Below, in pieces: positions 36,816 to 64,000 of a stretch of DNA of 64,000 nt (position 1 is the first letter of the stretch; each line of letters opens with the position of its first letter). This stretch comes from Castanea sativa. Taxonomy: Eukaryota; Streptophyta; Magnoliopsida; Fagales; Fagaceae. The notes under the pieces are model-generated. The model made no database searches. It was not told the origin of the DNA and saw only the letters and a list, made by a program, of their open reading frames with translations. The position numbers were made by a program, and so were the translations under genes. The stretch covers positions 43,277,335-43,341,334 of the forward strand of contig NC_134018.1 in NCBI RefSeq assembly GCF_040712315.1, read 5' to 3'.

Positions 36816-38368
36816 GGGACACGTCTGCCTGATTTGCTCCTAGCTTATCCTGACAAAGTCGATATTCTTTGAATTTTTATTAGTTGATTTAGTATTCAAC
36901 AATTGTAGCTTAATGTAGAGAAGGGAAAAGGGTCATAGAAGAAACAAATTTCAAGGTCTAAAACTTTGCAGGAAGAATGATTTCCTGCTAGGTTAGTTAT
37001 TATTTGGAGTAAGATTTGATTAGCAAAGATGCTGATTTAAAAAATATATATATTGTATTGTATTTTTTCCGACTCCTTTGGGGGTTGTTTATTAATTATT
37101 ATTTATTGGTATGTAAACTGTATACGAATCAGAGGCAATGGAATATTTATTATTTCTATGATCAAATTCTGCAACTTGTATCCATTTTGTGGACAAACAC
37201 AATGCAAGCTCTACAAAAATCTGAAATTCTGTTAATTGATTCTTGTGATCTATCACTGTTTCCCTTCACCTTCAGATGAGCATATGCATTTTCTTTCCGA
37301 TCATTATGCTGCAATTTGAGTTTTTGAGAGCTACCTTCCCCTATGATTAACTGGAAGTTTGAGCATTATCGCTCCTTTGTGCAAATTCTGCAAATCACAT
37401 TGTAGCAGTCTTCATTAGGATAGCTAAGGCTATAAATATATGGAAGGGCTAGTTGAGTTTGGTTGCTATTTTGATTCTGTCACTCATTTCTGCTACATGC
37501 TCAAATGATCTCACTGCTCATTTCTTTTGTCAAAAGCTTGGAAACCATGCTGCCATAACAATTGCCTTCATTTGGATTGCTGTAGAGTAAGGTAGTGTTG
37601 GCAAGAACTCGGGCTTCTTAGGCCTGTTTTGGTTTAACTTATTTTTATCCTAAAATGAAATGTACAACTTTTTGAAATATCACATTTTTAAGGTATAATT
37701 ATATCTCGACACAAAAAAAGAAAAAAAAGAATGGATGAAACTTACGTCATCCAATACCAATTTTTATATTGCACTTCCAAATGCAAAATCCTGAATATGC
37801 TGATTACTCATTACTAAAACCTAGAAAGATGTTGCTCTGCAGATCATTAGATTTGATCAAGTTAGGCACAGCACCAATTTCCTAACCTGTTTTCTTTTAC
37901 ACTCTTGAAAGGAGACTAATGGCCAACCAAGTTGCGCCTGGCTTTTAGTGGTCAAATTTGATTGAAATTGAATTTGTTGCCCGACATGAAAACATTATCT
38001 TGTAAACCAATTAACAGTTTTTTGTCTTGGACCGCACTGAGGCCATAGTTAGTTGAATTTCTTTCTAACTTTGTTGACTGCATCCCAATATGCACAGTAC
38101 GGGTGGCTGGTCTCCCTTACTTGAAATGTAAAACCAGGGTTATGGAAAGCAAAACAAAAAAATAAAAATAAAAATAAAAAATATACTTGTATATAAGAAC
38201 AGCCACCAAAACAACCCAACATTATTAGTCGCCATTAAGTCAAATTTGCATGTATCCTTTTGTTTTTTACTTCTTGTTTTCTTCTCAAATGATAAAAATA
38301 TTGTATTTAAATTAACTTATTTTCTTCCGCTCATTTTGTTTATTGTAAAAAAGTATAATTGTAATTAT
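36816..38368. other. 3' UTR and intergenic DNA between CCCH gene and E1
   Basis: The first few hundred bases are probably 3' UTR (AT-rich, no frame). No clear single poly(A) signal could be chosen. Nothing recognisable follows up to the ATTAT target duplication at 38364-38368. Confidence 0.45.
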
Positions 38369-39119
38369 TGTAAGTGCACAATTGCACCTGGCCCCAAGAA
38401 CAGTTGCGGGCCCGCCCCCCAATGAGCCTTAAACAATATGAATTTGTAGAGTGTGGGCTTGAAACCCAGGTTAGAAGTATGTGGGGATTAAATGACAAAC
38501 TAAGGATTTCGAACACTTGGAAACAATAAGGAATATTGCAAATTGGCCTCCTCGGACATAAGCCGAGAGCTGTTCTTATATTATATCCCTTTCTTAGTCT
38601 TTTCTTTCTTTTTAGGTTACAAAAATCCCTCCTCTTTCTGCCTTAAATTGCTCTTTATATACTATTCTTTTGAATGCTTTGTACACGTGTTGCCTCACCT
38701 TCCCCTTAGTCTAGATATTTCTTTTCTCAATGCCTTTGAATAGTAACCAGAAGTTTCTCTTCCACTGTTCAGGTGTCACTTCCCCATAAATGCGGCCAGG
38801 GTGGTAGGTGCAGGGTCTTTAATGTGGAGGTAGCAGCCTTTATCTTTGACATTTCTTCAACACCGGTGCTTCTGGGACGTTCTAGGGTTCACCCCTTTTA
38901 ACCATTGGCCTTAACCATGTCATCCCCTAATCTTTACTAGGAAATCCCGAGTTCTTCAACATTCATCCGAGGATAAGGTCACTCTCGGCTGGATCCTCGG
39001 ATCCTCAGCGTATGGGCCGACCCATAGTACTAACAATTTCTAAACCCAGGATCAGGTCGGCCTTCCTTAACACGGCCCACAAGGCCCACGTTCCCATCAG
39101 GATCTTTTTGCCCCCCACA
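38369..39119 (-). repeat. E1 3' LTR
   Basis: 751 bp. On the minus strand it starts TGTGGGGGGCAAAAAG and ends TGCACTTACA, with TATA box TATATAAA at 38661-38654. It differs from the E1 5' LTR by a handful of changes: CGCCCCCCAATGAG against CAGGCCCAATGAA at the U5 end, TAGTCTAG against TAGCCTAG, CTCAGCG against CTCGGCG, GGCTGG against GGTTGG, and TTTCTAA against TTTTTAA. Confidence 0.95.
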
Positions 39120-39129
39120 ATAGCCCCTC
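39120..39129 (-). promoter_or_regulatory. E1 polypurine tract
   Basis: On the minus strand GAGGGGCTAT lies directly before the 3' LTR, the position of the plus-strand primer. E2 has the same sequence. Confidence 0.7.
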
Positions 39130-39625
39130 AAAACTCTAATTTTCAACGTCCGAGGAGAAAAATAGGGTTTTGATCCGACGAGAACCTACTCCAATCATTT
39201 TGTGAGTAATGGCACGTGTGGAAATCGTTTCGCGTCCCAGAAGATGCTATTTGGCGGTTTTATTTTGAACAACGCGCGTATTCAATACTGACAGTTACAT
39301 TTTGTCCCTCACGTTTTACGGTGAGATGGACATCCAACGGCCCACATCACCCCACGAAATTTTAGGCGGGACAAACATAATTTCGAGGCCGCCTTTTCGC
39401 ACGTCGTGACGCTTCGGGAACCTGCGCCTTCATTTAATTCCTCTGGGGGTAATCCCATCAAGACATTAGCCATCATTCCTTACTTGCAGAAAACCGTGGA
39501 AATTTGCACTCCTTCAAACTCGTAAGTTCTTGCTCCTATTCTTAACCTCTTTCTCCTTGATATTTGTCCTCGGCTATCACTACAAACACTATCCCTCCTA
39601 GAGTCTAGTCTATCGTTCCTCGGTA

Positions 39626-42159
39626 ATGGGAAAATTCAAGTGTCTAGTTGATACCGCCGCCGGGATGGAAGGCTTTAGAGCCAAGTACCGTATTCCCGGC
39701 GACGTAGGGCTAAAATACGCCGGCAACGGCCGTGGCTGGTTCTAGGAAAGAGGGAGAGGTTATCATTCCTATGATAGCCTTTCTAGAGGGTGGGATGACC
39801 CTTCCAATGAAACCTGTAACTAGGGAGTACCTTCGCAACCACCGGTTGTGTCCCGATCAATGCCTCCCAAACGTTTTTAGAGTTCTAGGTAGTGTAGATG
39901 CTCTAAACGAGCAGATGGGTTTAAACCTCACATGGCACGATGTCGTGTTCCTATATGAGTCCCACAAACTTTCTAAAGTAGGTTATTACATTAAATCTCG
40001 GTCCAGCACCGTTAGGCTAATCTCCTGTCTGCCCAAATCAAACAAAGGCATGAAGGACGACTACTTGATCGTGTCTGGGAACTGGCACGACGGCTTCCAC
40101 TGCCCAGTTGAGTGGGGGGATCCAGGTGCGACGCCGTAGGATTAACCTCCCCACGACACAACTTCTCCTAACACACACACAGAAATGCGTATTCGTACTT
40201 ACTTAAATTTGTTAAACATCTATATAAATCTGACCAAGTTTGTTTGTTTTTGACATCTTTTTGGCAGATAAGCAACGCGTGCGTCCTCGTCTGAGTCACT
40301 GTAACATCGCAGATCTGAACCGGGTACTTCGCTCCGAGGTGTTCGTTAGTGAAGACCTACAACTCCGGGCTGCTCACCTTATCCTTGGGTACACCCCCCT
40401 TTCCAAAGACTTCCAGGAGATAGAGAACGCCATAATTGCAGGCGACCGAAGACGAAAGAGGATAAACGTAGCTCGGCCTCACTTTTTAGACGACCGTGAC
40501 CTCCCGGACGCTCCTAATACCATTTTGTACAACCGGCCGATAGCAGCAGTCCCTCTCGCCGTGCACTCACAAGCAACTGTCGTTCCAGAAGAGCAGGTGT
40601 CTTCTTCACACACACTCGACGACGAGATAGACCAATTCCATCTCGAAGACACCGAGAGACCTCGCGGGAACCAGTTTGTGGTACTCTCCGACGAGGAGGA
40701 AGAAGCCACCGAGGCCTCTGGAATTGCAGGGTTTGTGGTTGCCCTTCCCGAAGACGAATTTGAAGAAGACATGGGAAGAATGGAGGGTCTCCTCACCAAT
40801 AGGGCTGCTAAGGTTGCCGAGAAAAAGAAAGGGACATCTCAAGTTCCCCCAGCTTTACCTCCTCCTCCTCCTCCAGCTGAGCCAAAACTGCCAACCGAGG
40901 ATCCTAAGAAGAAGAGGAAGGGGGATAACGAGGGGACGATTACTAAAGACCCCAAGAAACCACGCCAACAACTCCCACCGGCCCAGCAGCAGAAGCTGGA
41001 CAAGGGCAAGGGTAGAGCCCGTTCGGCTGAAATTGGGGAAATCAGGGACGAGGCTGAAGTGCGACGAGCACCGACCACCTGGTCCCCCGATTTAAGACTG
41101 GACGGCGCTCCCATCTCCTGCCAATCCAGTATAAGGGCAGTTCAACAAGGCCACGCCCACCACCTGGCCGAGGTCTTGGAACGCCCTCTTCTGCTGCCCA
41201 AGGACATGGAGACCTTGGAAAAGATGGGCCAGCCACAACTATTCCTCTCACTAAAAAGAGACTTAGCGTTGGTAAGTATTTCTCCTTTTAACAATATTTA
41301 TAAGTAAGTTTGTTTTTTTGTTGTTTTTTAACTCCATCATACTTTACCACAGGCTATTCAGGAGGTCTTCGTAGCTGAGAAGTTTATTGAAGACACTCGG
41401 AAAATAGCCAGGACTGAGCTCGAAATCAGGATGGAAACTGAGAAGTCCTTGGGCACAGCCCTTGCTGCGAATGAGAAGTTGACCTCGGAGGTGGCTGATC
41501 TGAGGAGAGAGAAAAATGGGGTCGAGTCGAATTTGATGACCATGAAGACCCAGATAGAGGGACAGCGCAAGCTCCTTCGTGAAAGAGATGAAGAGCTCTC
41601 CCAAGCTCAAAGGGAGTGCTCGGATCTAAAGAAGGAACTGGAGTTAATGAAGAAAGAAGCCAGCTCCTTCCAACTTTCTCTCCTCGCCGCCAAGCAGGCA
41701 AGTTTTGATGAAGGGGTAGCAACCACCGAGGAACAGCTGACAGAGGAGTTCGCGGCTTTATGCCGCGATTACTGTCAAAAAGTATGGGGGGAAGCTTTAA
41801 ACGTAGCAGGAGTTCCCCAATCTTCGGATTTGAGGAAGTCCGAGAACGTTTGGCTTCCCCTAGAAATACAGGAGATTGAAGAGGCTCCTGCTGTTACTCC
41901 TACCCCTGAGACAACTCTTCCTGCTCTACCTCCAATGGTCCCACAGCAAATTCCTGATCCTACAGAACCTTCTGGTTCCAATAAAGAAAAGGAAGGAGGA
42001 GTGGATGCAGAGAAGGACTTGAACCAGACAGTGGAACCCAACGTCCTTCCAACAAAGACAGCGGATAAAGGAAAGCAGGTTATGACTCCTTTTGAGCTGG
42101 AGTTGAGAAAGACCGAGGGTACTAGTACCTCTCAGCAAGATCCTCCTCCAACAGCTTAG
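39626..42159 (+). pseudogene. E1 antisense ORF, three exons, frameshifted in exon 1
   Basis: Encoded opposite to gag-pol. Exons 39626-40125, 40268-41271 and 41353-42159; introns of 142 bp (GTGCGA...TTTGGCAG) and 81 bp (GTAAGT...CCACAG) with consensus borders, in phases 1 and 0. Exon 1 encodes the domain with IPMIAFLEGGMTLPMKP, NVFRVLGSVDALN and VRLISCLPKSN. Exon 2 has DLNRVLRSEVFV, an acidic stretch and a basic KK/Pro-rich stretch. Exon 3 is a coiled coil (EKLTSEVADLRREK...) then a Pro/Thr-rich tail. Compared with E2, two bases are missing within 39717-39722, so the ATG at 39626 goes out of frame before the conserved domain; exons 2 and 3 are open. The intact form would be about 770 residues. 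Function unknown; antisense ORFs are known in Tat elements. Confidence 0.75.
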
Positions 42160-42710
42160 GACTTAGCTTAGGGCTTCTCTTTTTCCATTCTTTTTTTGTT
42201 TTTGAATTATATATTGTAATGCATATTCAACTGATTAATGAAGAACGATTTCGTTTACTTTTCACTTGGATTGTGTCTGCTTTTACTTTATTCTTTTTGT
42301 ACTTATTACAAAAGTTTCCCATTAAGTCATATCAAAAGTTTCTCAGAGTATAAAAATCTAACTCCAAGGATTGCACAATCATAACTTCCACATAATCATG
42401 CGTATATTATTAAAGATTTAATACAAGGTGACATGGTTAATTCATTTGAATAATGCCTCGATTAAGAAGAAGAGAGGGCCTCATATAACGATTAAACCCT
42501 TGTAATGCATAGCTCTGTTTCTAGTAAGATGTAAGAGCCGAGGACCATTCCTTACACAATCAGAAGTTAACTTTACGATTTGAGTTAATAAACAGTAACG
42601 TATTAACATCCAGACACAATCAGAAGTTAACTTTAATCAAAGCCGTAGTCCGAAGATAAATATTAAGCAATCTTTCGTTTAATTCTTAAAAATTGTAACT
42701 GTAAATGTTA

Positions 42711-43012
42711 ATTTTCCCAAAGTAGGAGGTCCGAAGACCCGGCATAACTAAGGTTCTGTTTAACAAATGACAAGACATCAATTTCCACAAGGTTTGTGAT
42801 CCGAGGACTGCACTTAACCAAGTTTCTGTTTGATTCTTAAAAATTATCACTTCAAATGTTAATTTTCCCAAAGTAGGAGGTCCGAAGACCCGGCATAACT
42901 AAGGTTCTGTTTAACAAATGACAAGACATCAATTTCCACAAGGTTTGTGATCCGAGGACTGCACTTAACCAAGTTTCTGTTTGATTCTTAAAAATTATCA
43001 CTTCAAGCGTCA
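42711..43012. repeat. E1 151-bp tandem duplication
   Basis: Two near-identical copies of a 151-bp block (each with AAGTAGGAGGTCCGAAGACC and GATCCGAGGACTGCACTTAA) between pol and the aORF. The same duplication is in E2 at 58831-59132, and the corresponding place in the 16169-24638 element holds the 70-bp array. Confidence 0.9.
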
Positions 43013-43057
43013 GAGCTACTCATAACTTTGAAATACAACCGAGAAAAGCTCATTTTA

Positions 43058-46000
43058 TTAATAATAATACCTTCTAAGATTATTTACATTCCATGGACGT
43101 GGTACAATCCGTTCGTCTAGATCGGCTAGCCTATATGACCCTATGCCTGCTACTGAAACAATGCGATAGGGGCCTTCCCAGTTAGGTCCCAGCTTACCCC
43201 AAGCCGGGTTCTTAGAAGTGCCTACAACTTTCCTTAATACAAGATCACCAGGTGCAAGTGGTCTTAGCTTCACATGGGCATCATATCCTCGTTTTAGCTT
43301 CTGCTGATAATAGGCCATCTGGACCATAGCTGCCTCACGCCGTTCTTCAAGTAAATCAAGACCTTTCTCTAGAAGTCCCTCGTTATTCTCTGGGCTAAAA
43401 GAACTTGTCTTTAGAGTAGGAAAACCAGATTCCAAAGGTATCACCGCCTCGGCTCCATAAGTCATAGAGAATGGCGTTTCTCCAGTGGATCTGCGCGGTG
43501 TGGTCCGATACGTCCACAGGACATGAGGGAGCTCCTCTACCCATCTACCTTTCGCATCGTCCAACCTCTTCTTGAGCCCGTTAACTATAACCTTGTTAAC
43601 GGCCTCGGCTTGTCCATTTCCCTGAGGATAAACAGGGGTGGAATATCTGTTTATGATACCCATGTCACCACAATACTTCCTAAAAGCCTTACTATCGAAC
43701 TGGACACCATTGTCAGAGATGAGTGTGTGTGGTACACCAAATCTAGTAACGATGTTTTTCCATATGAATTTCTTCGAATCGACATCTCGGATATTGGCTA
43801 AGGGCTCAGCTTCAACCCATTTAGTGAAGTAGTCTGTTCCCACCAGCAGCCATCTTTTGTTGCCAACAGCCCTCGGAAATGGCCCTACAATGTCCAAGCC
43901 CCACTGTGCGAAAGGCCAAGGGCTGGAGAGAGGGTTAAGAACCCCTCCAGGTTGGTGGATATTAGGGGCGAACCTCTGACATTGATCGCATTTTCTAGCA
44001 TAGTCCTGAGCTTCCCTCTGCATATTAGGCCACCAATAACCCTGCGTCAGGGCTCTATGGGCTAAAGACCTTCCCCCAGTGTGGCTCCCACAAATTCCCT
44101 CATGCAATTCCTCCAGTAATGTCTCTGTTGATTCAGGGTGCACACATAACAAATACGGTCCTGAGAAGGATCGTTTGTACAGCTTCTGGTCCTCGGACAA
44201 CCAGAAACGCGGCGCCTTTCGACGTATCTTTTCTGCTTCAACCTTGGCTTCGGGCAGAATGTCATTTTTAAGAAAAGATATGATCGAATCCATCCAACTA
44301 GGACCAGGCCTTATTAGATGGATGCGAGGTGCGTTAGCAGTTACAAGAGAAGGTTCTACCAAATCCTGAACGAGGATAACCCTTGGTAACCCTTGAGCCG
44401 AGGACGTTGCCAAAGTAGCCAAGGAATCTGCATGAGTGTTTCCACTCCTAGAAACGTGAGCTAAGGAAAAGGAGTCGAATTCAGCCTGCTGGCGTTTGAC
44501 CTGGGCCAAATATTCCTGCATTCTGGAGTCTCTAGCCTCCATGGTTCCCATGACCTGGCCGACCACTAACTGAGAGTCTGAGAACACGTGGATTTCCTTG
44601 CCACCCATCTTATGTACCATTTGCATGCCTACCAAGACTGCTTCATACTCGGCCTCGTTATTAGTAGCCGAGAAGGCCAATCTCAAAGATTTTTCGAAGA
44701 CAATTCCTTCAGGGGACATTAGAACAAGTCCAACACCAGACCCTCTTTGATTAGCAGCCCCATCCACATGAACTCTCCAAACCGAGGGCGATACGTCTGT
44801 GATCACACCAACTGATTTCTCACCCATGTGTGCTTCTTTTGAAGTTTCTTCTATCAATGGTTCAGTAAACTCTGCCACCAAATCTGCGAGGACCTGTCCC
44901 TTTACCGATGTGCGAGGCCTGTATTTAACATCAAAGGCTCCCAAAATGGTTCCCCATTTTGCCACCCTGCCAGAGTAATCAGCACTACGCAACACAGCCT
45001 TAAGAGGCAACTGGGTCAAAACAACCACAGTATGAGATTGGAAATAATGAGGAAGTTTGCGCGTGGCGTGGACTACAGCCAGAAGTGCTTTTTCCAAGGG
45101 CAGATAGCGCACCTCGGCCTCATTCAAGGACTTACTAACGTAGTAGATCGGTCTCTGCACTCCGCTTTCATTCCTTATAAGGACTAAGCTCACCGCGTGA
45201 ATAGCCACGGCCAGATAAGCGAATAAAACCTCGTCCACCTCAGGGCGAGATAAAATAGGTGGGCGAGAAAGATATTGCTTAAGCTGTTGGAAAGCTAAAT
45301 CGCAGTCTTCAGTCCATTGAAACCCTTTCCACTTGTGCAACAACTGAAAGAAAGGACGACACCGATCAGCTGACCGAGAAATAAATCTATTCAACGCAAC
45401 CACCATTCCAGTCAATTTCTGAATCTCTTTTGGGTTCCTAGGCGGCTGCAAATTCTGAATAGCCTTAACCTGCACCGGGTTTACCTCTATACCCCTATGA
45501 GTAATCATATATCCCAAGAACCTTCCAGATCCCACGCCAAAAGAACACTTGGAGGCGTTAAGGCGCAACTTATACTTCCTTAGCATTTGGAAGGTGTCGG
45601 CCAGATCTGTCATGTGCGACGGTATTGCCTTACTCTTCACCACCATATCATCCACGTATACTTCGATGGTTTTCCCCATTTGCTGTTCAAACATTCGGGT
45701 CATCATTCTTTGATAAGTAGCCCCAGCGTTTTTTAATCCAAACGGCATGACCTTATAATGATAGTTCCCGGTTGGAGTAATGAAAGCAGTCTTCTCCTGA
45801 TCCTCCAACGCCAAGGGAATTTGGTGGTAACCCTGGAAGGCGTCCAAGAAACTCATCCGAGGATGTCCAACAGTGGCATCTACCAGTTGATCAATCCGTG
45901 GCATTGGGAACGAATCTTTAGGACAGGCCTTGTTCAGATCAGTAAAGTCCACACATACTCTCCAGTTACCGCTCTTCTTTTTAACAACAACAGTATGAGC

Positions 46001-46342
46001 CAACCATTCAGGGTAGAAAACTTCTTTGATAGCCCCCGCCCTTTTGAGTTTAAGAACCTCTTCCTTCACAGCTTCAGAATGTTCTCGGGAAGATCGCCGA
46101 GGTGGCTGCCTCCTCGGAACAATGGCAGGATTGACGTTTAAACGATGACAAATAAAGTTCGGATCTACACCTGGAGCCTCATAGGGGTCCCACGCAAAAA
46201 CATCTAAATTATCTTTCAGAAATTTCAACAACTCCATCTTCTCTTGGTGTGGCAAAAGTATGCCAACTTGGAAAAACCTCTCTGGATCATCTGTTATTAC
46301 AAACTTCTCTAACTCCTCACAAATAGCCTCGTCTCCTGTCAT
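43058..46342 (-). CDS. E1 pol: RT, RNase H, aRNase H, integrase
   Basis: 1094 open codons. Domain order and residues are as in E2 pol: RT with YVDD at 229-232, gypsy RNase H, an archaeal-type RNase H with Asp527 and Asp589, an integrase zinc finger ending C785-X2-C788, and integrase core D817, D877, E913. There is no chromodomain; the C terminus is PYRIVSVAGIGSYRLADLDE...RPWNVNNLRRYYY. Only two residues differ from E2 (Leu against Met at 42, Asp against Tyr at 928). It makes cDNA and integrates it. The ATG is only the first Met in the frame; in E2 the frame continues upstream through a UAG into protease. In E1 a one-base deletion before that UAG puts the protease in another frame, so pol would be poorly or not expressed as a Pro-Pol fusion. 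Confidence 0.93.
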   Translation of the reverse strand: MTGDEAICEELEKFVITDDPERFFQVGILLPHQEKMELLKFLKDNLDVFAWDPYEAPGVDPNFICHRLNVNPAIVPRRQPPRRSSREHSEAVKEEVLKLKRAGAIKEVFYPEWLAHTVVVKKKSGNWRVCVDFTDLNKACPKDSFPMPRIDQLVDATVGHPRMSFLDAFQGYHQIPLALEDQEKTAFITPTGNYHYKVMPFGLKNAGATYQRMMTRMFEQQMGKTIEVYVDDMVVKSKAIPSHMTDLADTFQMLRKYKLRLNASKCSFGVGSGRFLGYMITHRGIEVNPVQVKAIQNLQPPRNPKEIQKLTGMVVALNRFISRSADRCRPFFQLLHKWKGFQWTEDCDLAFQQLKQYLSRPPILSRPEVDEVLFAYLAVAIHAVSLVLIRNESGVQRPIYYVSKSLNEAEVRYLPLEKALLAVVHATRKLPHYFQSHTVVVLTQLPLKAVLRSADYSGRVAKWGTILGAFDVKYRPRTSVKGQVLADLVAEFTEPLIEETSKEAHMGEKSVGVITDVSPSVWRVHVDGAANQRGSGVGLVLMSPEGIVFEKSLRLAFSATNNEAEYEAVLVGMQMVHKMGGKEIHVFSDSQLVVGQVMGTMEARDSRMQEYLAQVKRQQAEFDSFSLAHVSRSGNTHADSLATLATSSAQGLPRVILVQDLVEPSLVTANAPRIHLIRPGPSWMDSIISFLKNDILPEAKVEAEKIRRKAPRFWLSEDQKLYKRSFSGPYLLCVHPESTETLLEELHEGICGSHTGGRSLAHRALTQGYWWPNMQREAQDYARKCDQCQRFAPNIHQPGGVLNPLSSPWPFAQWGLDIVGPFPRAVGNKRWLLVGTDYFTKWVEAEPLANIRDVDSKKFIWKNIVTRFGVPHTLISDNGVQFDSKAFRKYCGDMGIINRYSTPVYPQGNGQAEAVNKVIVNGLKKRLDDAKGRWVEELPHVLWTYRTTPRRSTGETPFSMTYGAEAVIPLESGFPTLKTSSFSPENNEGLLEKGLDLLEERREAAMVQMAYYQQKLKRGYDAHVKLRPLAPGDLVLRKVVGTSKNPAWGKLGPNWEGPYRIVSVAGIGSYRLADLDERIVPRPWNVNNLRRYYY

Positions 46343-46365
46343 CGCTCCAGGTGCCTCCGGAGCTG

Positions 46366-47226: not shown

Positions 47227-47254
47227 CTTGCCGGGCCATCTGAAGAAGGGCTCT

Positions 47255-48382: not shown

Positions 48383-48408
48383 AATACCCCTACCTCTTCT
48401 AGACTAGA

Positions 48409-48426
48409 TTCCCACAGACGGCGCCA
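48409..48426 (-). promoter_or_regulatory. E1 primer binding site
   Basis: On the minus strand TGGCGCCGTCTGTGGGAA, two bases inside the 5' LTR. It pairs with a tRNA ending ...GGCGCCA. Tat elements mostly use Arg or Asp tRNAs; I cannot decide between them without a tRNA set. Confidence 0.8.
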
Positions 48427-48428
48427 AT

Positions 48429-49178: not shown

Positions 49179-49250
49179 GTACCTTGAATATTTTTTAGAT
49201 TATGATACCTACATAATGTCTTCATGAATATAAATGAATGCTTAAGATTA

Positions 49251-52374: not shown

Positions 52375-52649
52375 TAAGACACCAATTAGTATTTGGTGTA
52401 GGCGAAGATTGAACCCTAGATCTTTTATTCAACTTTCAGAGACTTTATTAATTAAGTTGAATTATTTTCTATCTTAAAATAGAATGTATGTCAATAACAT
52501 TGTAATTCAATTGATACTTTTTATTTTTCAATATAAACATAAAAAATGTTCAAATCTTCTCTCTTCGTTGGAGCTATCTTATTATAAAATTTTAAATTAA
52601 AAAAAAACCAACAAATGTACCACTTTTAAAGCATTTTTTTATATATAAT

Positions 52650-53405: not shown

Positions 53406-53407
53406 AT

Positions 53408-53425
53408 TGGCGCCGTCTGTGGGAA
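53408..53425 (+). promoter_or_regulatory. E2 primer binding site
   Basis: TGGCGCCGTCTGTGGGAA, two bases after the LTR. Identical to E1. Confidence 0.8.
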
Positions 53426-53451
53426 TCTAGTCTAGAAGAGGTAGGGGTATT

Positions 53452-54579
53452 ATGGCAGGCTTAGGCTCTCACCATGCAGAGTCACAAGGATCACAACCGG
53501 AAGATCACTTTGAACGTCTTGAACATCGTAGGGATCGTGAGGGAAGCGTCCATACAGAATACCCAGGGGCTAGCCATACTCATGAAGGAGGTAGCACTAC
53601 TCACGATGAGGGTTCTAAATCCATGCAGAAGGAAATCAATCGTTTAAAGAGGAAGTTACGCCGTGCTAAACGTAAGGTTTCTCCGTCCTCTTCTAGTTCT
53701 TCCTCAGGGAAAGATAGGAGGATTGTCTACAGTTCAAGGTCACGTTCCCCCACCAGCGCAACATCCTCCGGTGAAGAAGACGATCAACCAACTGGCAGGC
53801 GTAAGAAGTTTCGTTCTAGGGGCTTAGGTAACGATACCATGAGTAGGGCGTTGCACCAACTCTCTAAATCTCCGTTTTCACGGAGGATTGAGAGGGGGAG
53901 GCTTCCCAGGAGGTTCACCCAGCCCACGTTTACCATCTATAATGGCCGAACTGACCCGGTGGAGCACGTGAGTCACTTCAACCAGAGGATGGCAGTGCAC
54001 TCTCACAACGAGACTTTGATGTGTAAAGTCTTCCCCTCTAGCTTGGGACCTGTGGCTATGAGATGGTTTAACGGTCTCAAATCAGGATCCGTAGGCTCAT
54101 TTGGGGAGCTAACCAGGGCATTTGCTTCGCGGTTCATTACGTGTAGCAGAGTCCCTCGGCCATTGGACTCGTTACTATCCATGGCCATGAAGGAAGGGGA
54201 GACACTGAAAGCATACTCCGACCGATACTGGGAGATGTTTAATGAAATAGATGGCGACTTTGATGAGGTGGCGCTTAATACTTTTAAGGTGGGTCTCCCT
54301 ACTGACCACGACCTAAGAAAGTCCTTGACGAAAAAGCCTGTCCGCAGCGTACGCCGTCTTATGGATCGTATTGATGAATATAAGAGGGTAGAGGAAGACC
54401 AGCAGCAGGGGAAAGGAAAGGAGAAAGTTATCCCGCAGGAGAGAAGGGATTTCAGGTCGGACAGATATCACAATAAGCCGAGGAGGGATTACTTCGGACA
54501 ATCCGGCTCGGCAGCACCCCAGGCTGTAAATACTGTGTTCCGAGAACCAGTGCATCAGTTGTTAGAAAAAAGTTCGTAA
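53452..54579 (+). CDS. E2 gag
   Basis: 375 codons from the first ATG after the PBS. Residues 1-140 are polar, with a Ser run and Arg/Lys-rich patches; about 150-310 is the retrotransposon gag domain (LPRRFTQPTFTIYNGRTDPV, MRWFNGLKSGSVGSFGELTR, ETLKAYSDRYWEMFNEIDGD). The frame stops at 54577-54579. The expected continuation (KEPFFRWPGKM then the zinc-knuckle-like FCQYHQDVGHTTENC) is in the +1 frame, which is open from 54566. The frames therefore overlap by about four codons across an A6 run (54566-54571). Either a +1 frameshift makes Gag-Pro or the source element already had a damaged frame. Confidence 0.9.
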   Translation: MAGLGSHHAESQGSQPEDHFERLEHRRDREGSVHTEYPGASHTHEGGSTTHDEGSKSMQKEINRLKRKLRRAKRKVSPSSSSSSSGKDRRIVYSSRSRSPTSATSSGEEDDQPTGRRKKFRSRGLGNDTMSRALHQLSKSPFSRRIERGRLPRRFTQPTFTIYNGRTDPVEHVSHFNQRMAVHSHNETLMCKVFPSSLGPVAMRWFNGLKSGSVGSFGELTRAFASRFITCSRVPRPLDSLLSMAMKEGETLKAYSDRYWEMFNEIDGDFDEVALNTFKVGLPTDHDLRKSLTKKPVRSVRRLMDRIDEYKRVEEDQQQGKGKEKVIPQERRDFRSDRYHNKPRRDYFGQSGSAAPQAVNTVFREPVHQLLEKSS

Positions 54580-54607
54580 AGAGCCCTTCTTCAGATGGCC
54601 CGGCAAG

Positions 54608-55462
54608 ATGGCAGGGGACCCTGCTAGAAGAAATCAAAACCTTTTCTGTCAGTACCATCAGGATGTGGGCCACACTACCGAGAACTGTCGGACCCTGTGG
54701 AATCATCTAGAGCAGCTCGTCGGTGAGGGAAAGTTAAAGCAGCACTTGTGTCAGCCCACCGGGCAGGTCAGTCAAGTTGGTTCAAACAATCAGAGGAACA
54801 GTTCATCTCGACCGGCATTGGGAACAATTAATGTTATCTTCGCCGCACCCGGTAGGACCGGCTCAGGTCCCACTAGGGTTATGGCGGTTTCCCATCCGCA
54901 GGCCGAGGATGTGGGTAGCAGGCCGAAGAGATTAAGGAGCACTTTACCTGTCTTGGGTTTCTCCGAGGAGGATAAGGTAGGGACTATCCAGCCCCATGAC
55001 GATGCTCTTGTGGTTACCCTCAGAATAGGGAACTATGATGTGAGAAGGGTGATGATAGATCAGGGCAGCGGTGCAGATATCATGTACCCTGATCTATTTA
55101 AAGGGCTAAGATTGGAGTTGGAAGATTTAACCCCTTATGACTCCCCACTTATAAGCTTCGAAGGAAGGGCCGTTATGCCGAAGGGACAGATCCGTTTACC
55201 CGTTCAATCCGGCACCGAAACGGTGGAGGTAGATTTCATTGTTGTTGACGCGTACTCTCCATATACAGCCATCCTCGCCAGGCCATGGTTGCACGCCTTG
55301 GGAGCTGTCTCCTCTACCTTACATGTTAAGGTGAAATTCCCCTCGGGGGAGCATGTTGAGGAAATCCTCGGCAGCCAGGTAGTGGCTAGGCAATGCATAT
55401 CCGCTGCGGTGCTTCGTCAGTCAGAAATTGAGTCATCAACCTTGCCCATCCAGGAGTCATAG
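54608..55462 (+). CDS. E2 gag zinc-knuckle/protease ORF
   Basis: 284 codons from the first ATG; the frame is open from 54566. It begins with FCQYHQDVGHTTENCRTLWN, similar to the C-terminal gag zinc knuckle region of Tat elements. Next come a linker and the aspartic protease with the VMIDQGSGADIMYPD active-site segment and VDAYSPYTAILARPWL near the end. It stops at UAG (55460-55462), followed by CAAUUA, in frame with pol, so a Pro-Pol protein would arise by readthrough. The role is to cut Gag and Pol during particle maturation. Confidence 0.88.
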   Translation: MAGDPARRNQNLFCQYHQDVGHTTENCRTLWNHLEQLVGEGKLKQHLCQPTGQVSQVGSNNQRNSSSRPALGTINVIFAAPGRTGSGPTRVMAVSHPQAEDVGSRPKRLRSTLPVLGFSEEDKVGTIQPHDDALVVTLRIGNYDVRRVMIDQGSGADIMYPDLFKGLRLELEDLTPYDSPLISFEGRAVMPKGQIRLPVQSGTETVEVDFIVVDAYSPYTAILARPWLHALGAVSSTLHVKVKFPSGEHVEEILGSQVVARQCISAAVLRQSEIESSTLPIQES

Positions 55463-55468
55463 CAATTA
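55460..55468 (+). promoter_or_regulatory. Candidate stop-codon readthrough site UAG-CAA-UUA
   Basis: The protease frame ends UCA-UAG-CAA-UUA and stays open in the same frame through 55463-55492 into pol. UAG CAA UUA is the established readthrough context of tobamoviruses (UAG CAR YYA). The same nine bases are at 46375-46367 in E1, but there the protease frame is shifted away from it. Efficiency here is untested. Confidence 0.65.
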
Positions 55469-55492
55469 ACAGCTCCGGAGGCACCTGGAGCG

Positions 55493-58400
55493 ATGACAGG
55501 AGACGAGGCTATTTGTGAGGAGTTAGAGAAGTTTGTAATAACAGATGATCCAGAGAGGTTTTTCCAAGTTGGCATACTTTTGCCACACCAAGAGAAGATG
55601 GAGTTGTTGAAATTTATGAAAGATAATTTAGATGTTTTTGCGTGGGACCCCTATGAGGCTCCAGGTGTAGATCCGAACTTTATTTGTCATCGTTTAAACG
55701 TCAATCCTGCCATTGTTCCGAGGAGGCAGCCACCTCGGCGATCTTCCCGAGAACATTCTGAAGCTGTGAAGGAAGAGGTTCTTAAACTCAAAAGGGCGGG
55801 GGCTATCAAAGAAGTTTTCTACCCTGAATGGTTGGCTCATACTGTTGTTGTTAAAAAGAAGAGCGGTAACTGGAGAGTATGTGTGGACTTTACTGATCTG
55901 AACAAGGCCTGTCCTAAAGATTCGTTCCCAATGCCACGGATTGATCAACTGGTAGATGCCACTGTTGGACATCCTCGGATGAGTTTCTTGGACGCCTTCC
56001 AGGGTTACCACCAAATTCCCTTGGCGTTGGAGGATCAGGAGAAGACTGCTTTCATTACTCCAACCGGGAACTATCATTATAAGGTCATGCCGTTTGGATT
56101 AAAAAACGCTGGGGCTACTTATCAAAGAATGATGACCCGAATGTTTGAACAGCAAATGGGGAAAACCATCGAAGTATACGTGGATGATATGGTGGTGAAG
56201 AGTAAGGCAATACCGTCGCACATGACAGATCTGGCCGACACCTTCCAAATGCTAAGGAAGTATAAGTTGCGCCTTAACGCCTCCAAGTGTTCTTTTGGCG
56301 TGGGATCTGGAAGGTTCTTGGGATATATGATTACTCATAGGGGTATAGAGGTAAACCCGGTGCAGGTTAAGGCTATTCAGAATTTGCAGCCGCCTAGGAA
56401 CCCAAAAGAGATTCAGAAATTGACTGGAATGGTGGTTGCGTTGAATAGATTTATTTCTCGGTCAGCTGATCGGTGTCGTCCTTTCTTTCAGTTGTTGCAC
56501 AAGTGGAAAGGGTTTCAATGGACTGAGGACTGCGATTTAGCTTTCCAACAGCTTAAGCAATATCTTTCTCGCCCACCTATTTTATCTCGCCCTGAGGTGG
56601 ACGAGGTTTTATTCGCTTATCTGGCCGTGGCTATTCACGCGGTGAGCTTAGTCCTTATAAGGAATGAAAGCGGAGTACAGAGACCGATCTACTACGTTAG
56701 TAAGTCCTTGAATGAGGCCGAGGTGCGCTATCTGCCCTTGGAAAAAGCACTTCTGGCTGTAGTCCACGCCACGCGCAAACTTCCTCATTATTTCCAATCT
56801 CATACTGTGGTTGTTTTGACCCAGTTGCCTCTTAAGGCTGTGTTGCGTAGTGCTGATTACTCTGGCAGGGTGGCAAAATGGGGAACCATTTTGGGAGCCT
56901 TTGATGTTAAATACAGGCCTCGCACATCGGTAAAGGGACAGGTCCTCGCAGATTTGGTGGCAGAGTTTACTGAACCATTGATAGAAGAAACTTCAAAAGA
57001 AGCACACATGGGTGAGAAATCAGTTGGTGTGATCACAGACGTATCGCCCTCGGTTTGGAGAGTTCATGTGGATGGGGCTGCTAATCAAAGAGGGTCTGGT
57101 GTTGGACTTGTTCTAATGTCCCCTGAAGGAATTGTCTTCGAAAAATCTTTGAGATTGGCCTTCTCGGCTACTAATAACGAGGCCGAGTATGAAGCAGTCT
57201 TGGTAGGCATGCAAATGGTACATAAGATGGGTGGCAAGGAAATCCACGTGTTCTCAGACTCTCAGTTAGTGGTCGGCCAGGTCATGGGAACCATGGAGGC
57301 TAGAGACTCCAGAATGCAGGAATATTTGGCCCAGGTCAAACGCCAGCAGGCTGAATTCGACTCCTTTTCCTTAGCTCACGTTTCTAGGAGTGGAAACACT
57401 CATGCAGATTCCTTGGCTACTTTGGCAACGTCCTCGGCTCAAGGGTTACCAAGGGTTATCCTCGTTCAGGATTTGGTAGAACCTTCTCTTGTAACTGCTA
57501 ACGCACCTCGCATCCATCTAATAAGGCCTGGTCCTAGTTGGATGGATTCGATCATATCTTTTCTTAAAAATGACATTCTGCCCGAAGCCAAGGTTGAAGC
57601 AGAAAAGATACGTCGAAAGGCGCCGCGTTTCTGGTTGTCCGAGGACCAGAAGCTGTACAAACGATCCTTCTCAGGACCGTATTTGTTATGTGTGCACCCT
57701 GAATCAACAGAGACATTACTGGAGGAATTGCATGAGGGAATTTGTGGGAGCCACACTGGGGGAAGGTCTTTAGCCCATAGAGCCCTGACGCAGGGTTATT
57801 GGTGGCCTAATATGCAGAGGGAAGCTCAGGACTATGCTAGAAAATGCGATCAATGTCAGAGGTTCGCCCCTAATATCCACCAACCTGGAGGGGTTCTTAA
57901 CCCTCTCTCCAGCCCTTGGCCTTTCGCACAGTGGGGCTTGGACATTGTAGGGCCATTTCCGAGGGCTGTTGGCAACAAAAGATGGCTGCTGGTGGGAACA
58001 GACTACTTCACCAAATGGGTTGAAGCTGAGCCCTTAGCCAATATCCGAGATGTCGATTCGAAGAAATTCATATGGAAAAACATCGTTACTAGATTTGGTG
58101 TACCACACACACTCATCTCTGACAATGGTGTCCAGTTCGATAGTAAGGCTTTTAGGAAGTATTGTGGTGACATGGGTATCATAAACAGATATTCCACCCC
58201 TGTTTATCCTCAGGGAAATGGACAAGCCGAGGCCGTTAACAAGGTTATAGTTAACGGGCTCAAGAAGAGGTTGTACGATGCGAAAGGTAGATGGGTAGAG
58301 GAGCTCCCTCATGTCCTGTGGACGTATCGGACCACACCGCGCAGATCCACTGGAGAAACGCCATTCTCTATGACTTATGGAGCCGAGGCGGTGATACCTT

Positions 58401-58777
58401 TGGAATCTGGTTTTCCTACTCTAAAGACAAGTTCTTTTAGCCCAGAGAATAACGAGGGACTTCTAGAGAAAGGTCTTGATTTACTTGAAGAACGGCGTGA
58501 GGCAGCTATGGTCCAGATGGCCTATTATCAGCAGAAGCTAAAACGAGGATATGATGCCCATGTGAAGCTAAGACCACTTGCACCTGGTGATCTTGTATTA
58601 AGGAAAGTTGTAGGCACTTCTAAGAACCCGGCTTGGGGTAAGCTGGGACCTAACTGGGAAGGCCCCTATCGCATTGTTTCAGTAGCAGGCATAGGGTCAT
58701 ATAGGCTAGCCGATCTAGACGAACGGATTGTACCACGTCCATGGAATGTAAATAATCTTAGAAGGTATTATTATTAA
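55493..58777 (+). CDS. E2 pol: RT, RNase H, aRNase H, integrase
   Basis: 1094 codons from the first ATG after the readthrough site. RT occupies about residues 60-330 (WRVCVDFTDLNKACPKDSFP, FLDAFQGYHQI, YVDD at 229-232). Gypsy RNase H follows (about 370-480; LEKALLAVVHA). The archaeal-type RNase H is at about 520-650 (HVDGAANQRG with Asp527, NNEAEYEA near 563, FSDSQ with Asp589, GNTHADSLATLA). Integrase has a zinc finger ending CDQC (785-788), a core with Asp817, Asp877 and Glu913 (spacing D-X59-D-X35-E), and a C-terminal PNWEGPYRI domain. There is no chromodomain. All catalytic residues are present. It copies element RNA and inserts the cDNA. It differs from E1 pol at residues 42 and 928; Tyr928 replaces Asp just after the core. 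Confidence 0.95.
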   Translation: MTGDEAICEELEKFVITDDPERFFQVGILLPHQEKMELLKFMKDNLDVFAWDPYEAPGVDPNFICHRLNVNPAIVPRRQPPRRSSREHSEAVKEEVLKLKRAGAIKEVFYPEWLAHTVVVKKKSGNWRVCVDFTDLNKACPKDSFPMPRIDQLVDATVGHPRMSFLDAFQGYHQIPLALEDQEKTAFITPTGNYHYKVMPFGLKNAGATYQRMMTRMFEQQMGKTIEVYVDDMVVKSKAIPSHMTDLADTFQMLRKYKLRLNASKCSFGVGSGRFLGYMITHRGIEVNPVQVKAIQNLQPPRNPKEIQKLTGMVVALNRFISRSADRCRPFFQLLHKWKGFQWTEDCDLAFQQLKQYLSRPPILSRPEVDEVLFAYLAVAIHAVSLVLIRNESGVQRPIYYVSKSLNEAEVRYLPLEKALLAVVHATRKLPHYFQSHTVVVLTQLPLKAVLRSADYSGRVAKWGTILGAFDVKYRPRTSVKGQVLADLVAEFTEPLIEETSKEAHMGEKSVGVITDVSPSVWRVHVDGAANQRGSGVGLVLMSPEGIVFEKSLRLAFSATNNEAEYEAVLVGMQMVHKMGGKEIHVFSDSQLVVGQVMGTMEARDSRMQEYLAQVKRQQAEFDSFSLAHVSRSGNTHADSLATLATSSAQGLPRVILVQDLVEPSLVTANAPRIHLIRPGPSWMDSIISFLKNDILPEAKVEAEKIRRKAPRFWLSEDQKLYKRSFSGPYLLCVHPESTETLLEELHEGICGSHTGGRSLAHRALTQGYWWPNMQREAQDYARKCDQCQRFAPNIHQPGGVLNPLSSPWPFAQWGLDIVGPFPRAVGNKRWLLVGTDYFTKWVEAEPLANIRDVDSKKFIWKNIVTRFGVPHTLISDNGVQFDSKAFRKYCGDMGIINRYSTPVYPQGNGQAEAVNKVIVNGLKKRLYDAKGRWVEELPHVLWTYRTTPRRSTGETPFSMTYGAEAVIPLESGFPTLKTSSFSPENNEGLLEKGLDLLEERREAAMVQMAYYQQKLKRGYDAHVKLRPLAPGDLVLRKVVGTSKNPAWGKLGPNWEGPYRIVSVAGIGSYRLADLDERIVPRPWNVNNLRRYYY

Positions 58778-58830
58778 TAAAATGAGCTTTTCTCAGTTTG
58801 TATTTCAAAGTTATGAGTAGCTCTGACGCT

Positions 58831-59132
58831 TGAAGTGATAATTTTTAAGAATCAAACAGAAACTTGGTTAAGTGCAGTCCTCGGATCACAAACCTTGTGG
58901 AAATTGATGTCTTGTCATTTGTTAAACAGAACCTTAGTTATGCCGGGTCTTCGGACCTCCTACTTTGGGAAAATTAACATTTGAAGTGATAATTTTTAAG
59001 AATCAAACAGAAACTTGGTTAAGTGCAGTCCTCGGATCACAAACCTTGTGGAAATTGATGTCTTGTCATTTGTTAAACAGAACCTTAGTTATGCCGGGTC
59101 TTCGGACCTCCTACTTTGGGAAAATTAACATT
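58831..59132. repeat. E2 151-bp tandem duplication
   Basis: TGAAGTGATAATTTTTAAGA starts at 58831 and 58982. The two copies are almost identical and match E1 42711-43012. They lie directly after pol. Confidence 0.9.
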
Positions 59133-59676
59133 TACAGTTACAATTTTTAAGAATTAAACGAAAGATTGCTTAATATTTATCTTCGGACTACGGCTTTGAT
59201 TAAAGTTAACTTCTGATTGTGTCTGGATGTTAATACGTTACTGTTTATTAACTCAAATCGTAAAGTTAACTTCTGATTGTGTAAGGAATGGTCCTCGGCT
59301 CTTACATCTTACTAGAAACAGAGCTATGCATTACAAGGGTTTAATCGTTATATGAGGCCCTCTCTTCTTCTTAATCGAGGCATTATTCAAATGAATTAAC
59401 CATGTCACCTTGTATTAAATCTTTAATAATATACGCATGATTATGTGGAAGTTATGATTGTGCAATCCTTGGAGTTAGATTTTTATACTCTGAGAAACTT
59501 TTGATATGACTTAATGGGAAACTTTTGTAATAAGTACAAAAAGAATAAAGTAAAAGCAGACACAATCCAAGTGAAAAGTAAACGAAATCGTTCTTCATTA
59601 ATCAGTTGAATATGCATTACAATATATAATTCAAAAACAAAAAAAGAATGGAAAAAGAGAAGCCCTAAGCTAAGTC

Positions 59677-62212
59677 CTAAGCTGTTGGAGGAGGATCTTG
59701 TTGAGAGGTACTAGTACCCTCGGTCTTTCTCAACTCCAGCTCAAAAGGAGTCATAACCTGCTTTCCTTTATCCGCTGTCTTTGTTGGAAGGACGTTGGGT
59801 TCCACTGTCTGGTTCAAGTCCTTCTCTGCATCCACTCCTCCTTCCTTTTCTTTATTGGAACCAGAAGGTTCTGTAGGATCAGGAATTTGCTGTGGGACCA
59901 TTGGAGGTAGAGCAGGAAGAGTTGTCTCAGGGGTAGGAGTAACAGCAGGAGCCTCTTCAATCTCCTGTATTTCTAGGGGAAGCCAAACGTTCTCGGACTT
60001 CCTCAAATCCGAAGATTGGGGAACTCCTGCTACGTTTAAAGCTTCCCCCCATACTTTTTGACAGTAATCGCGGCATAAAGCCGCAAACTCCTCTGTCAGC
60101 TGTTCCTCGGTGGTTGCTACCCCTTCATCAAAACTTGCCTGCTTGGCGGCGAGGAGAGAAAGTTGGAAGGAGCTGGCTTCTTTCTTCATTAACTCCAGTT
60201 CCTTCTTTAGATCCGAGCACTCCCTTTGAGCTTGGGAGAGCTCTTCATCTCTTTCACGAAGGAGCTTGCGCTGTCCCTCTATCTAGGTCTTCATGGTCAT
60301 CAAATTCGACTCGACCCCATTTTTCTCTCTCCTCAGATCAGCCACCTCCGAGGTCAACTTCTCATTCGCAGCAAGGGCTGTGCCCAAGGACTTCTCAGTT
60401 TCCATCCTGATTTCGAGCTCAGTCCTGGCTATTTTCCGAGTGTCTTCAATAAACTTCTCAGCTACGAAGACCTCCTGAATAGCCTGTGGTAAAGTATGAT
60501 GGAGTTAAAAAACAACAAAAAAACAAACTTACTTATAAATATTGTTAAAAGGAGAAATACTTACCAACGCTAAGTCTCTTTTTAGTGAGAGGAATAGTTG
60601 TGGCTGGCCCATCTTTTCCAAGGTCTCCATGTCCTTGGGCAGCAGAAGAGGGCGTTCCAAGACCTCGGCCAGGTGGTGGGTGTGGCCTTGTTGAACTGCC
60701 CTTATACTGGATTGGCAGGAGATGGGAGCGCCGTCCAGTCTTAAATCGGGGGACCAGGTGGTCGGTGCTCGTCGCACTTCAGCCTCGTCCCTGATTTCCC
60801 CAATTTCAGCCGAACGGGCTCTACCCTTGCCCTTGTCCAGCTTCTGCTGCTGGGCCGGTGGGAGTTGTTGGCGTGGTTTCTTGGGGTCTTTAGTAATCGT
60901 CCCCTCGTTATCCCCCTTCCTCTTCTTCTTAGGATCCTCGGTTGGCAGTTTTGGCTCAGCTGGAGGAGGAGGAGGAGGTAAAGCTGGGGGAACTTGAGAT
61001 GTCCCTTTCTTTTTCTCGGCAACCTTAGCAGCCCTATTGGTGAGGAGACCCTCCATTCTTCCCATGTCTTCTTCAAATTCGTCTTCGGGAAGGGCAACCA
61101 CAAACCCTGCAATTCCAGAGGCCTCGGTGGCTTCTTCCTCCTCGTCGGAGAGTACCACAAACTGGTTCCCGCGAGGTCTCTCGGTGTCTTCGAGATGGAA
61201 TTGGTCTATCTCGTCGTCGAGTGTGTGTGAAGAAGACACCTGCTCTTCTGGAACGACAGTTGCTTGTGAGTGCACGGCGAGAGGGACTGCTGCTATCGGC
61301 CGGTTGTACAAAATGGTATTAGGAGCGTCCGGGAGGTCACGGTCGTCTAAAAAGTGAGGCCGAGCTACGTTTATCCTCTTTCGTCTTCGGTCGCCTGCAA
61401 TTATGGCGTTCTCTATCTCCTGGAAGTCTTTGGAAAGGGGGGTGTACCCAAGGATAAGGTGAGCAGCCCGGAGTTGTAGGTCTTCACTAACGAACACCTC
61501 GGAGCGAAGTACCCGGTTCAGATCTGCGATGTTACAGTGACTCAGACGAGGACGCACGCGTTGCTTATCTGCAAAAAAGATGTCAAAAACAAACAAACTT
61601 GGTCAGATTTATATAGATGTTTAACAAATTTAAGTAAGTACGAATACGCATTTCTGTGTGTGTGTTAGGAGAAGTTGTGTCGTGGGGAGGTTAATCCTAC
61701 GGCGTCGCACCTGGATCCCCCCACTCAACTGGGCAGTGGAAGCCGTCGTGCCAGTTCCCAGACACGATCAAGTAGTCGTCCTTCATGCCTTTGTTTGATT
61801 TGGGCAGACAGGAGATTAGCCTAACGGTGCTGGACCGAGATTTAATGTAATAACCTACTTTAGAAAGTTTGTGGGACTCATATAGGAACACGACATCGTG
61901 CCATGTGAGGTTTAAACCCATCTGCTCGTTTAGAGCATCTACACTACCTAGAACTCTAAAAACGTTTGGGAGGCATTGATCGGGACACAACCGGTGGTTG
62001 CGAAGGTACTCCCTAGTTACAGGTTTCATTGGAAGGGTCATCCCACCCTCTAGAAAGGCTATCATAGGAATGATAACCTCTCCCTCTTTCCTAGAACCAG
62101 CCACGGCTGTTGCCGGGCAGTATTTTAGCCCTACGTCGCTGGGAATACGGTACTTGGCTCTAAAGCCTTCCATCCCAGCGGCGGTATCAACTAGACACTT
62201 GAATTTTCCCAT
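59677..62212 (-). pseudogene. E2 antisense ORF, three exons, nonsense codon in exon 3
   Basis: Exons on the minus strand: 62212-61711, 61568-60565 and 60483-59677, with introns of 142 and 81 bp at the same places as in E1. Joined length would be 2313 nt (770 residues). Exon 1 is intact here (MGKFKCLVDTAAGMEGFRAK start) and carries the Transposase_28-like domain. Exon 2 has the DLNRVLRSE motif, then acidic and Lys/Pro-rich parts. Exon 3 is a coiled coil. One codon that is CAG in E1 (41551-41553) is TAG here (60285-60283), cutting the protein inside the coiled coil and removing about 200 residues. E1 and E2 thus carry different lesions, and the ancestor was probably intact. Function unknown. 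Confidence 0.75.
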
Positions 62213-62708
62213 TACAGAGGAACGATAGACTAGACTCTAGGAGGGATAGTGTTTGTAGTGATAGCCGAGGACAAATATCAAGGAGAAAGAGGTTAAGAAT
62301 AGGAGCAAGAACTTACGAGTTTGAAGGAGTGCAAATTTCCACGGTTTTCTGCAAGTAAGGAATGATGGCTAATGTCTTGATGGGATTACCCCCAGAGGAA
62401 TTAAATGAAGGCGCAGGTTCCCGAAGCGTCACGACGTGCGAAAAGGCGGCCTCGAAATTATGTTTGTCCCGCCTAAAATTTCGTGGGGTGATGTGGGCCG
62501 TTGGATGTCCATCTCACCGTAAAACGTGAGGGACAAAATGTAACTGTCAGTATTGAATACGCGCGTTGTTCAAAATAAAACCGCCAAATGGCATCTTCTG
62601 GGACGCGAAACGATTTCCACACGTGCCATTACTCACAAAATGATTGGAGTAGGTTCTCGTCGGATCAAAACCCTATTTTTCTCCTCGGACGTTGAAAATT
62701 AGAGTTTT

Positions 62709-62718
62709 GAGGGGCTAT
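62709..62718 (+). promoter_or_regulatory. E2 polypurine tract
   Basis: GAGGGGCTAT directly before the 3' LTR, as in E1. Confidence 0.7.
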
Positions 62719-63468
62719 TGTGGGGGGCAAAAAGATCCTGATGGGAACGTGGGCCTTGTGGGCCGTGTTAAGGAAGGCCGACCTGATCCTGGGTTTAGAA
62801 ATTGTTAGTACTATGGGTCGGCCCATACGCCGAGGATCCGAGGATCCAGCCGAGAGTGACCTTATCCTCGGATGAATGTTGAAGAACTCGGGATTTCCTA
62901 GTAAAGATTAGGGGATGACATGGTTAAGGCCAATGGTTAAAAGGGGTGAACCCTAGAACGTCCCAGAAGCACCGGTGTTGAAGAAATGTCAAAGATAAAG
63001 GCTGCTACCTCCACATTAAAGACCCTGCACCTACCACCCTGGCCGCATTTATGGGGAAGTGACACCTGAACAGTGGAAGAGAAACTTCTGGTTACTATTC
63101 AAAGGCATTGAGAAAAGAAATGTCTAGGCTAAGGGGAAGGTGAGGCAACACGTGTACAAAGCATTCAAAAGAATAGTATATAAAGAGCAATTTAAGGCAG
63201 AAAGAGGAGGGATTTTTGTAACCTAAAAAGAAAGAAAAGACTAAGAAAGGGATATAATATAAGAACAGCTCTCGGCTTATGTCCGAGGAGGCCAATTTGC
63301 AATATTCCTTATTGTTTCCAAGTGTTCGAAATCCTTAGTTTGTCATTTAATCCCCACATACTTCTAACCTGGGTTTCAAGCCCACACTCTACAAATTCAT
63401 ATTGTTTAAGGCTCATTGGGCCTGGGCCCGCAACTGTTCTTGGGGCCAGGTGCAATTGTGCACTTACA
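62719..63468 (+). repeat. E2 3' LTR
   Basis: 750 bp. Shares GGCTCATTGG and TTTAGAAATTG with the E1 3' LTR, against GGTTCATTGG and TTTAAAAATTG in both 5' LTRs. Private change: AATGTCTAGG. Confidence 0.95.
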
Positions 63469-64000
63469 GGTACCATATAATGATTCATTTCCTAACATAT
63501 CTATTATTATCAAATAAAAGACATACTTACTCATATTTCCAAAAACTTTGATGAATGCACTATCCCATATATATCACAATCCATTTAGTTAGACGCCTCA
63601 TGCATGCCTAAGTTTCAATTTTAATGAGAATGAAAACTAACCATAATAAATTTTATTTTGGCTTATCTTCGAGACAAATCAAACCTAATCCATTAGATTC
63701 TCATCACCAAAAAAAAAAAAAAAAAAAAAACCCAACCTAACCCCTTCCATTTTGAGTTGGTATGAAGTCAAATTAAATGACATATTATAATTTTTTCACG
63801 GATACAAATCTTAGTGTTATAATATTAAAAACTAATTTAACAAGTTGTGTGCAAGCCAATTTGACCCTGTTGGGTGTTCTCTTTGGTCAAGATTGAATTT
63901 GAGGAAGCACCCTGCTGAGTGTTCTCTTTGGTCAAGACTCAAGATTGAATTTGAGGAAGCACCTAAAAGAGTCAAAGACTGTTTTGGTGCACACCTTTGG
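63469..64000. other. Flank of E2, AT-rich
   Basis: Begins with the GGTAC half of the exchanged duplication. Contains a poly(A) run near 63708-63730 and the duplication listed separately. No gene seen. Confidence 0.5.
63865..63962. repeat. Short tandem duplication, about 45-53-bp unit
   Basis: TGTTCTCTTTGGTCAAGA then GATTGAATTTGAGGAAGCAC occurs twice. The second copy has an extra CTCAAGA. Confidence 0.8.

Follow-up and report, generated by a model that had tools for sequence, protein, structure and literature searches.

Inverted Retand-type retrotransposons with exchanged target-site duplications in Castanea sativa point to a probable inversion of the 3.46-kb spacer between them

Two nearly identical retrotransposons lie in opposite orientation within a 64,000-nucleotide stretch of the Castanea sativa genome (assembly GCF_040712315.1, contig NC_134018.1, positions 43,277,335 to 43,341,334; the window), and the 5-bp target-site duplications (TSDs) at their borders are exchanged between them. 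The first element, E1, occupies 38369-49178 and the second, E2, 52650-63468; they align end to end on opposite strands over 10,820 columns with 99.556% identity, 37 mismatches and 5 gap openings. The gag-pol frames correct the coding orientation: E1 reads on the minus strand, and E2, the inverted copy, on the plus strand. Because E1 is coded on the minus strand, its left-hand long terminal repeat (LTR) is the 3' LTR (38369-39119, 751 bp) and its right-hand LTR the 5' LTR (48429-49178, 750 bp). E2 carries its 5' LTR on the left (52650-53405, 756 bp, including a private 6-bp insertion) and its 3' LTR on the right (62719-63468, 750 bp). Two bases inside the 5' LTR of E1, on the minus strand, stands TGGCGCCGTCTGTGGGAA (48409-48426), which resembles a primer-binding site and may be one. 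The spacer between the two elements, 3.46 kb long (49184-52644), is the segment that we believe to have been turned around.

In E1 a gag frame of 382 amino acids (47255-48403, minus strand) matches Retrotrans_gag in Pfam. It is followed by a frame of 300 amino acids in the position of the protease (46366-47268), which has no Pfam match, and by a pol frame of 1104 amino acids (43058-46372) that contains reverse transcriptase (RT), RNase H, a second RNase H (RVT_3) and integrase domains. The corresponding frames of E2, of 382, 298 and 1104 amino acids, run along the plus strand over 53431-58777. In E1 a tandem array of 151 bp x 2.2 (42673-43006) adjoins pol, and the region between pol and the 3' LTR, about 3.9 kb long, holds antisense frames of 357 and 275 amino acids in the stretch 40234-42159 (plus strand). 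For the Retand lineage this region has been published at 2,933-6,566 bp (PMC11963269). The LTR, internal and pol-3' LTR lengths of E1 and E2 fall within the published ranges, the antisense frames and the tandem array beside pol are typical of that lineage and occur here too, and the RT, RNase H and integrase domains expected of a Retand gag-pol are present. For the antisense TRP28 domain (PF04195), a scan of E2 gave a match below threshold in the frame 61697-62236 (E 0.017; 15.8 bits against a cut-off of 26.2). Judged by this fit to the published description, E1 and E2 are Retand-type Ty3/gypsy elements.

The best match to gag is 86% identical; the best named one comes from Castanea dentata (80%), followed at lower identity by Quercus and Castanea sativa. 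A search of viral_contigs with an exact LTR 30-mer and with pol peptide patterns, a set from which the window's own or near genomes may have been left out, yielded no further copies of the family. A comparison of the window with itself at E 1e-10, which gave 76 rows of more than 80 columns, connected E1 and E2 to the rest of it only through a pol stretch at 22408-23175 with 65-66% identity.

The borders of the elements carry the main signal. E1 begins with TGTAAG directly after ATTAT (38364-38369; the duplication itself at 38364-38368) and ends in CCCACA directly before GTACC (49178-49183; duplication 49179-49183). E2 begins with TGTGGG after ATAAT (52645-52650; duplication 52645-52649) and ends in CTTACA before GGTAC (63468-63473; duplication 63469-63473). 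Neither element has a matching pair of its own. Between the elements, ATTAT pairs with ATAAT and GTACC with GGTAC, as reverse complements, with 5/5 bases matching in both pairs. From the 5-mer frequencies outside E1 and E2, the probability that a random pair of 5-mers matches is 0.0018 and that two pairs do so is 3.2e-6. The joint frequency for the two actual words is 1.3e-6, and the probability of chance stays below 1e-5 even when multiplied by two to allow for both ways of pairing the words. The original prediction made for this stretch had described the exchange and considered a chance origin very unlikely; all four 5-mers and the element ends proved correct to the base, and with a joint probability of about 3e-6 its judgement of chance holds as well. 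The exchanged TSDs coincide with long inverted homology 3.46 kb apart, and inversion of the spacer by recombination is the best reading of the locus.

What do the LTRs say about how such an inversion came about? Insertions left untouched predict that the two LTRs of one element agree, and a plain crossover between insertions that differ predicts agreement of the LTRs with a common TSD, the two left-hand ones of E1 and E2 and likewise the two right-hand ones. The alignment of the four LTRs has 19 variable columns, of which three (758-760) lie in the element interior, outside the LTR, and ten (39-44 and 52-55) reflect two private indel or replacement events. Among the remaining six substitution columns four are private (348 and 645 in E1 left, 627 in E1 right, 354 in E2 right) and two, 64 and 678, are informative. 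In both, one base stands in E1 left and E2 right and the alternative base in E1 right and E2 left, so that the LTRs group by element end in 2/2 columns, by TSD in 0/2 and by element in 0/2. Counted by pairs, LTRs of the same element differ by 5 and 3 substitutions, those of the same TSD by 4 and 4, and those of the same end by 3 and 1. In addition, a short GC-rich stretch of the LTR (38407-38420 and 53362-53367) has been altered by a private event in each of E1 left and E2 left.

The original prediction had explained the exchanged duplications by two insertions and a crossover that both inverted the spacer and swapped element halves. The inversion stands as the best reading; the swap of halves is not demonstrated, neither of the two informative columns grouping by TSD. 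A crossover between source copies whose LTRs were identical would be invisible in them, so the columns are still compatible with one. Grouping by element end does call for an extra step, be it conversion, copying at the DNA level, mixing in the assembly or an unlikely double parallel mutation. The last of these has a probability of 3e-5 to 8e-3 in six simulated settings, and columns 64 and 678 are neither CG nor CHG in their printed contexts, so that they are no obvious methylation hotspots. Transfer of sequence between the copies is thus a better account of the two columns than parallel mutation.

Taken together, the evidence leads us to think that a crossover between inverted Retand-type copies probably inverted the 3.46-kb spacer and thereby swapped the TSDs, likely together with gene conversion of LTR sequence. 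The integrase would have made two insertions in opposite orientation, at ATTAT and at GGTAC. Repair of a break between E1 and E2 with a crossover would then have turned the spacer and with it swapped the TSDs, and a conversion tract, of presumed extent and direction, would have replaced LTR sequence in one copy with that of its partner, giving the same-end alleles. The smallest sufficient tract would be about 0.6 kb inside one LTR, provided that both new alleles originated there; if each insertion instead had its own alleles, conversion would have to replace both ends of one element. Crossover and conversion could have been a single event or two.

The components of such a scheme are known. Inversion 2z3 of Drosophila buzzatii arose by ectopic recombination between Galileo transposons, both copies of which are chimeric (PMC2775673). 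As with E1 and E2, copies in opposite orientation flank the inverted segment and the exchanged TSDs are reverse complements of each other; the present case differs in that the elements are LTR retrotransposons, the TSDs measure 5 bp, the segment spans 3.46 kb and no LTR chimerism is seen. Conversion between plant LTR retrotransposons, a non-allelic transfer of LTR sequence like the one proposed, proceeds mostly in tracts of 100-1000 bp (PMC7251063), a range that covers the minimal tract of about 0.6 kb; here, differently, it would accompany an inversion. Pairs of closely spaced elements also yield inversions by alternative transposition of maize Ac/Ds (PMC8225341, PMC3470690), and the spacer of a head-to-head VANDAL21 pair in Arabidopsis has been inverted, deleted or circularised (PMC12312487). 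Those are class II cut-and-paste elements, whereas E1 and E2 are LTR retrotransposons. Inversions with exchanged TSDs and conversion between elements are both known processes, proposed here for a Retand pair; we found no identical plant case among the open-access papers listed in our searches, which is not proof of absence.

Several points weigh against this explanation. The chimeric signature of the Galileo kind is absent (0/2 informative LTR columns), although identical sources or conversion would leave none, and the argument for conversion rests on only two LTR columns, which are unpolarised. Conversion between plant LTR elements is, moreover, much rarer than conversion within one element (PMC7251063). 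Nor does the distribution of differences along the elements discriminate: merged within 10 bp they form 29 events, spread evenly in three binnings (p 0.59, 0.87 and 0.78), which fits whole-element conversion, two near-identical sources or DNA-level copying. In accordance, the longest clean stretch, 1,335 bp, is unexceptional (p 0.54 for a stretch without event), as is the longest run without mismatch (p 0.28), and the evenly distributed differences inside E1 and E2 give no sign of recent partial conversion tracts.

The orientation of a diverged local repeat of about 300 bp lends the turned spacer weak support. One copy lies to the left of E1 (37990-38298, plus strand) and the other in the spacer (51780-52073, minus strand); their local alignment scores 165, while none of 60 shuffles exceeded 64. 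The copies are now inverted, and turning the spacer would make them a direct local duplication. Of 17 further repeat pairs that lie outside E1 and E2 and are separated by under 5 kb, 15 are direct and 2 are inverted, many of the direct ones coming from the same arrays. Continuity of the flanks across the junctions beside the repeat gave little: five of six comparisons fell inside their 100 shuffles, and the sixth, right flank against the sequence upstream of copy 1, scored 51 against a maximum of 49 in 100 shuffles, one of six. The two repeat copies hold TATA-like stretches and could represent a duplicated promoter.

Could the inversion be a product of the assembly? On this explanation the two copies were partly mixed in one path and the spacer was turned by the assembler, with no inversion in the plant. 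An assembly error would yield identical swapped TSDs; a collapsed inverted repeat makes the orientation of the spacer ambiguous. Had a single consensus served for both copies, the LTRs would agree by end as well, so that one cause would account for both signals. Against it, the collapse would have to be incomplete, given 37 mismatches (28 transitions and 9 transversions) and no clean stretch longer than 1,335 bp, and accurate long reads, if used, would separate copies this different. In addition, each element has its own changes in gag, where three residues differ. At residue 97 the E2 residue is found in 0/120 homologues and that of E1 in 13/120; at residues 303 and 304 those of E1 are found in 0/120 and 9/120 and those of E2 in 97/120 at either position. 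Private gag changes in both copies indicate that E1 and E2 evolved as separate copies, an argument against complete collapse into a single consensus. The artefact is weakened by this evidence of separate copies, and we regard it as unlikely, although it is the rival that survives best. Within gag, the three neighbouring substitutions at 47494-47496 may be one multi-base mutation, in which E1 appears derived.

Two independent insertions followed by one plain crossover that swapped halves, without conversion, would account for the TSDs, the informative columns then being parallel mutations. Only two columns contradict this, and sources with identical LTRs would lead one to expect no chimeric mark. 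Both of these columns nevertheless group by element end, and in view of the low probability of parallel hits (3e-5 to 8e-3) we consider a crossover of this simple kind improbable.

Placed no better is a one-step route that resembles cut-and-paste transposition. Here a resident element had slightly diverged LTRs, and the ends of sister copies, the left of one and the right of the other, were inserted together at a nearby GGTAC; the element would be duplicated at the DNA level 3.5 kb away, the spacer inverted and the TSDs exchanged. After such an insertion the copies should be identical but for later mutations, not chimeric, and their TSDs should be exchanged, a criterion taken from PMC2775673, in which hybrid-element insertion was set aside for Galileo because the copies were chimeric. 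It fits the sharing of LTR bases by end, the inverted orientation and the closeness of the elements, and also the even divergence, although the latter does not discriminate, as gene conversion predicts the same pattern. It has been described, however, for cut-and-paste elements, namely Ac/Ds and VANDAL21 (PMC8225341, PMC3470690, PMC12312487), and a short conversion suffices for the LTR columns. The integrase core in pol, recognised by sequence match only, would be the candidate enzyme. To our knowledge integrated LTR elements are not excised by their own integrase, which counts against this very improbable route.

Aberrant integration in trans, in which two new complementary DNAs (cDNAs) were joined crosswise to two target sites in one event, should leave the same TSD exchange and inversion. 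In the scheme of reverse transcription each new cDNA has identical LTRs at birth. Integration of this kind leaves the two shared LTR columns unexplained, and we give it hardly any credence. A chance match of the four 5-mers, even granted the high frequency of ATTAT (0.0033) in AT-rich DNA, is rejected at a joint probability of about 3e-6.

If the inversion by crossover is biological, the locus presents a small retrotransposon-mediated inversion at single-base resolution, 1.5 kb downstream of a zinc-finger gene. Dating by LTR divergence depends on an assumption that is broken where LTRs are closer between elements than within one. The E1/E2 pair could flip repeatedly, and the orientation of the spacer may differ among trees. 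If it is an artefact, exchanged TSDs can serve, without recourse to reads, as a simple sign that a segment between inverted repeats has been misoriented in a plant assembly.

A domain search finds ankyrin repeats and CCCH zinc fingers in the product of the neighbouring gene (34716-36815). Among the 120 of its 2,394 matches that were listed, the best are 96% and 88% identical; the next that bear a name come from Alnus (84%), Juglans (82%) and Morella (82%), three genera of the Fagales, and no named member of the Fagaceae stood among those listed. Together with the gag matches they point to a probable host in the Fagaceae. Scans of the window with Rfam at gathering thresholds and for tRNAs gave no match.

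The spacer itself has a history of insertions. An apparent solo LTR of another family (49975-50673, TGTGGG...CTTACA) retains an intact 5-bp duplication, AAGAA, on both sides. It is nested within an apparent DNA transposon (49466-50913) with the ends CAGTGGCGGA and TCCGCCACTG and the 8-bp flanks CAAGTGAT and TAAGTGAT, which match in 7/8 positions; we presume this transposon to be of the hAT type. Further upstream in the window an older element (16371-24638) has LTRs about 85% identical, minus-strand pieces of RT and RNase H, a 70-bp tandem array and an antisense frame that weakly matches PF04195; with its ends placed by eye, the words beside it, CTACT and GTTAG, do not match. Several direct repeat pairs about 3.2-3.9 kb apart and 73-92% identical lie within 25532-30690 and resemble one old local duplication.

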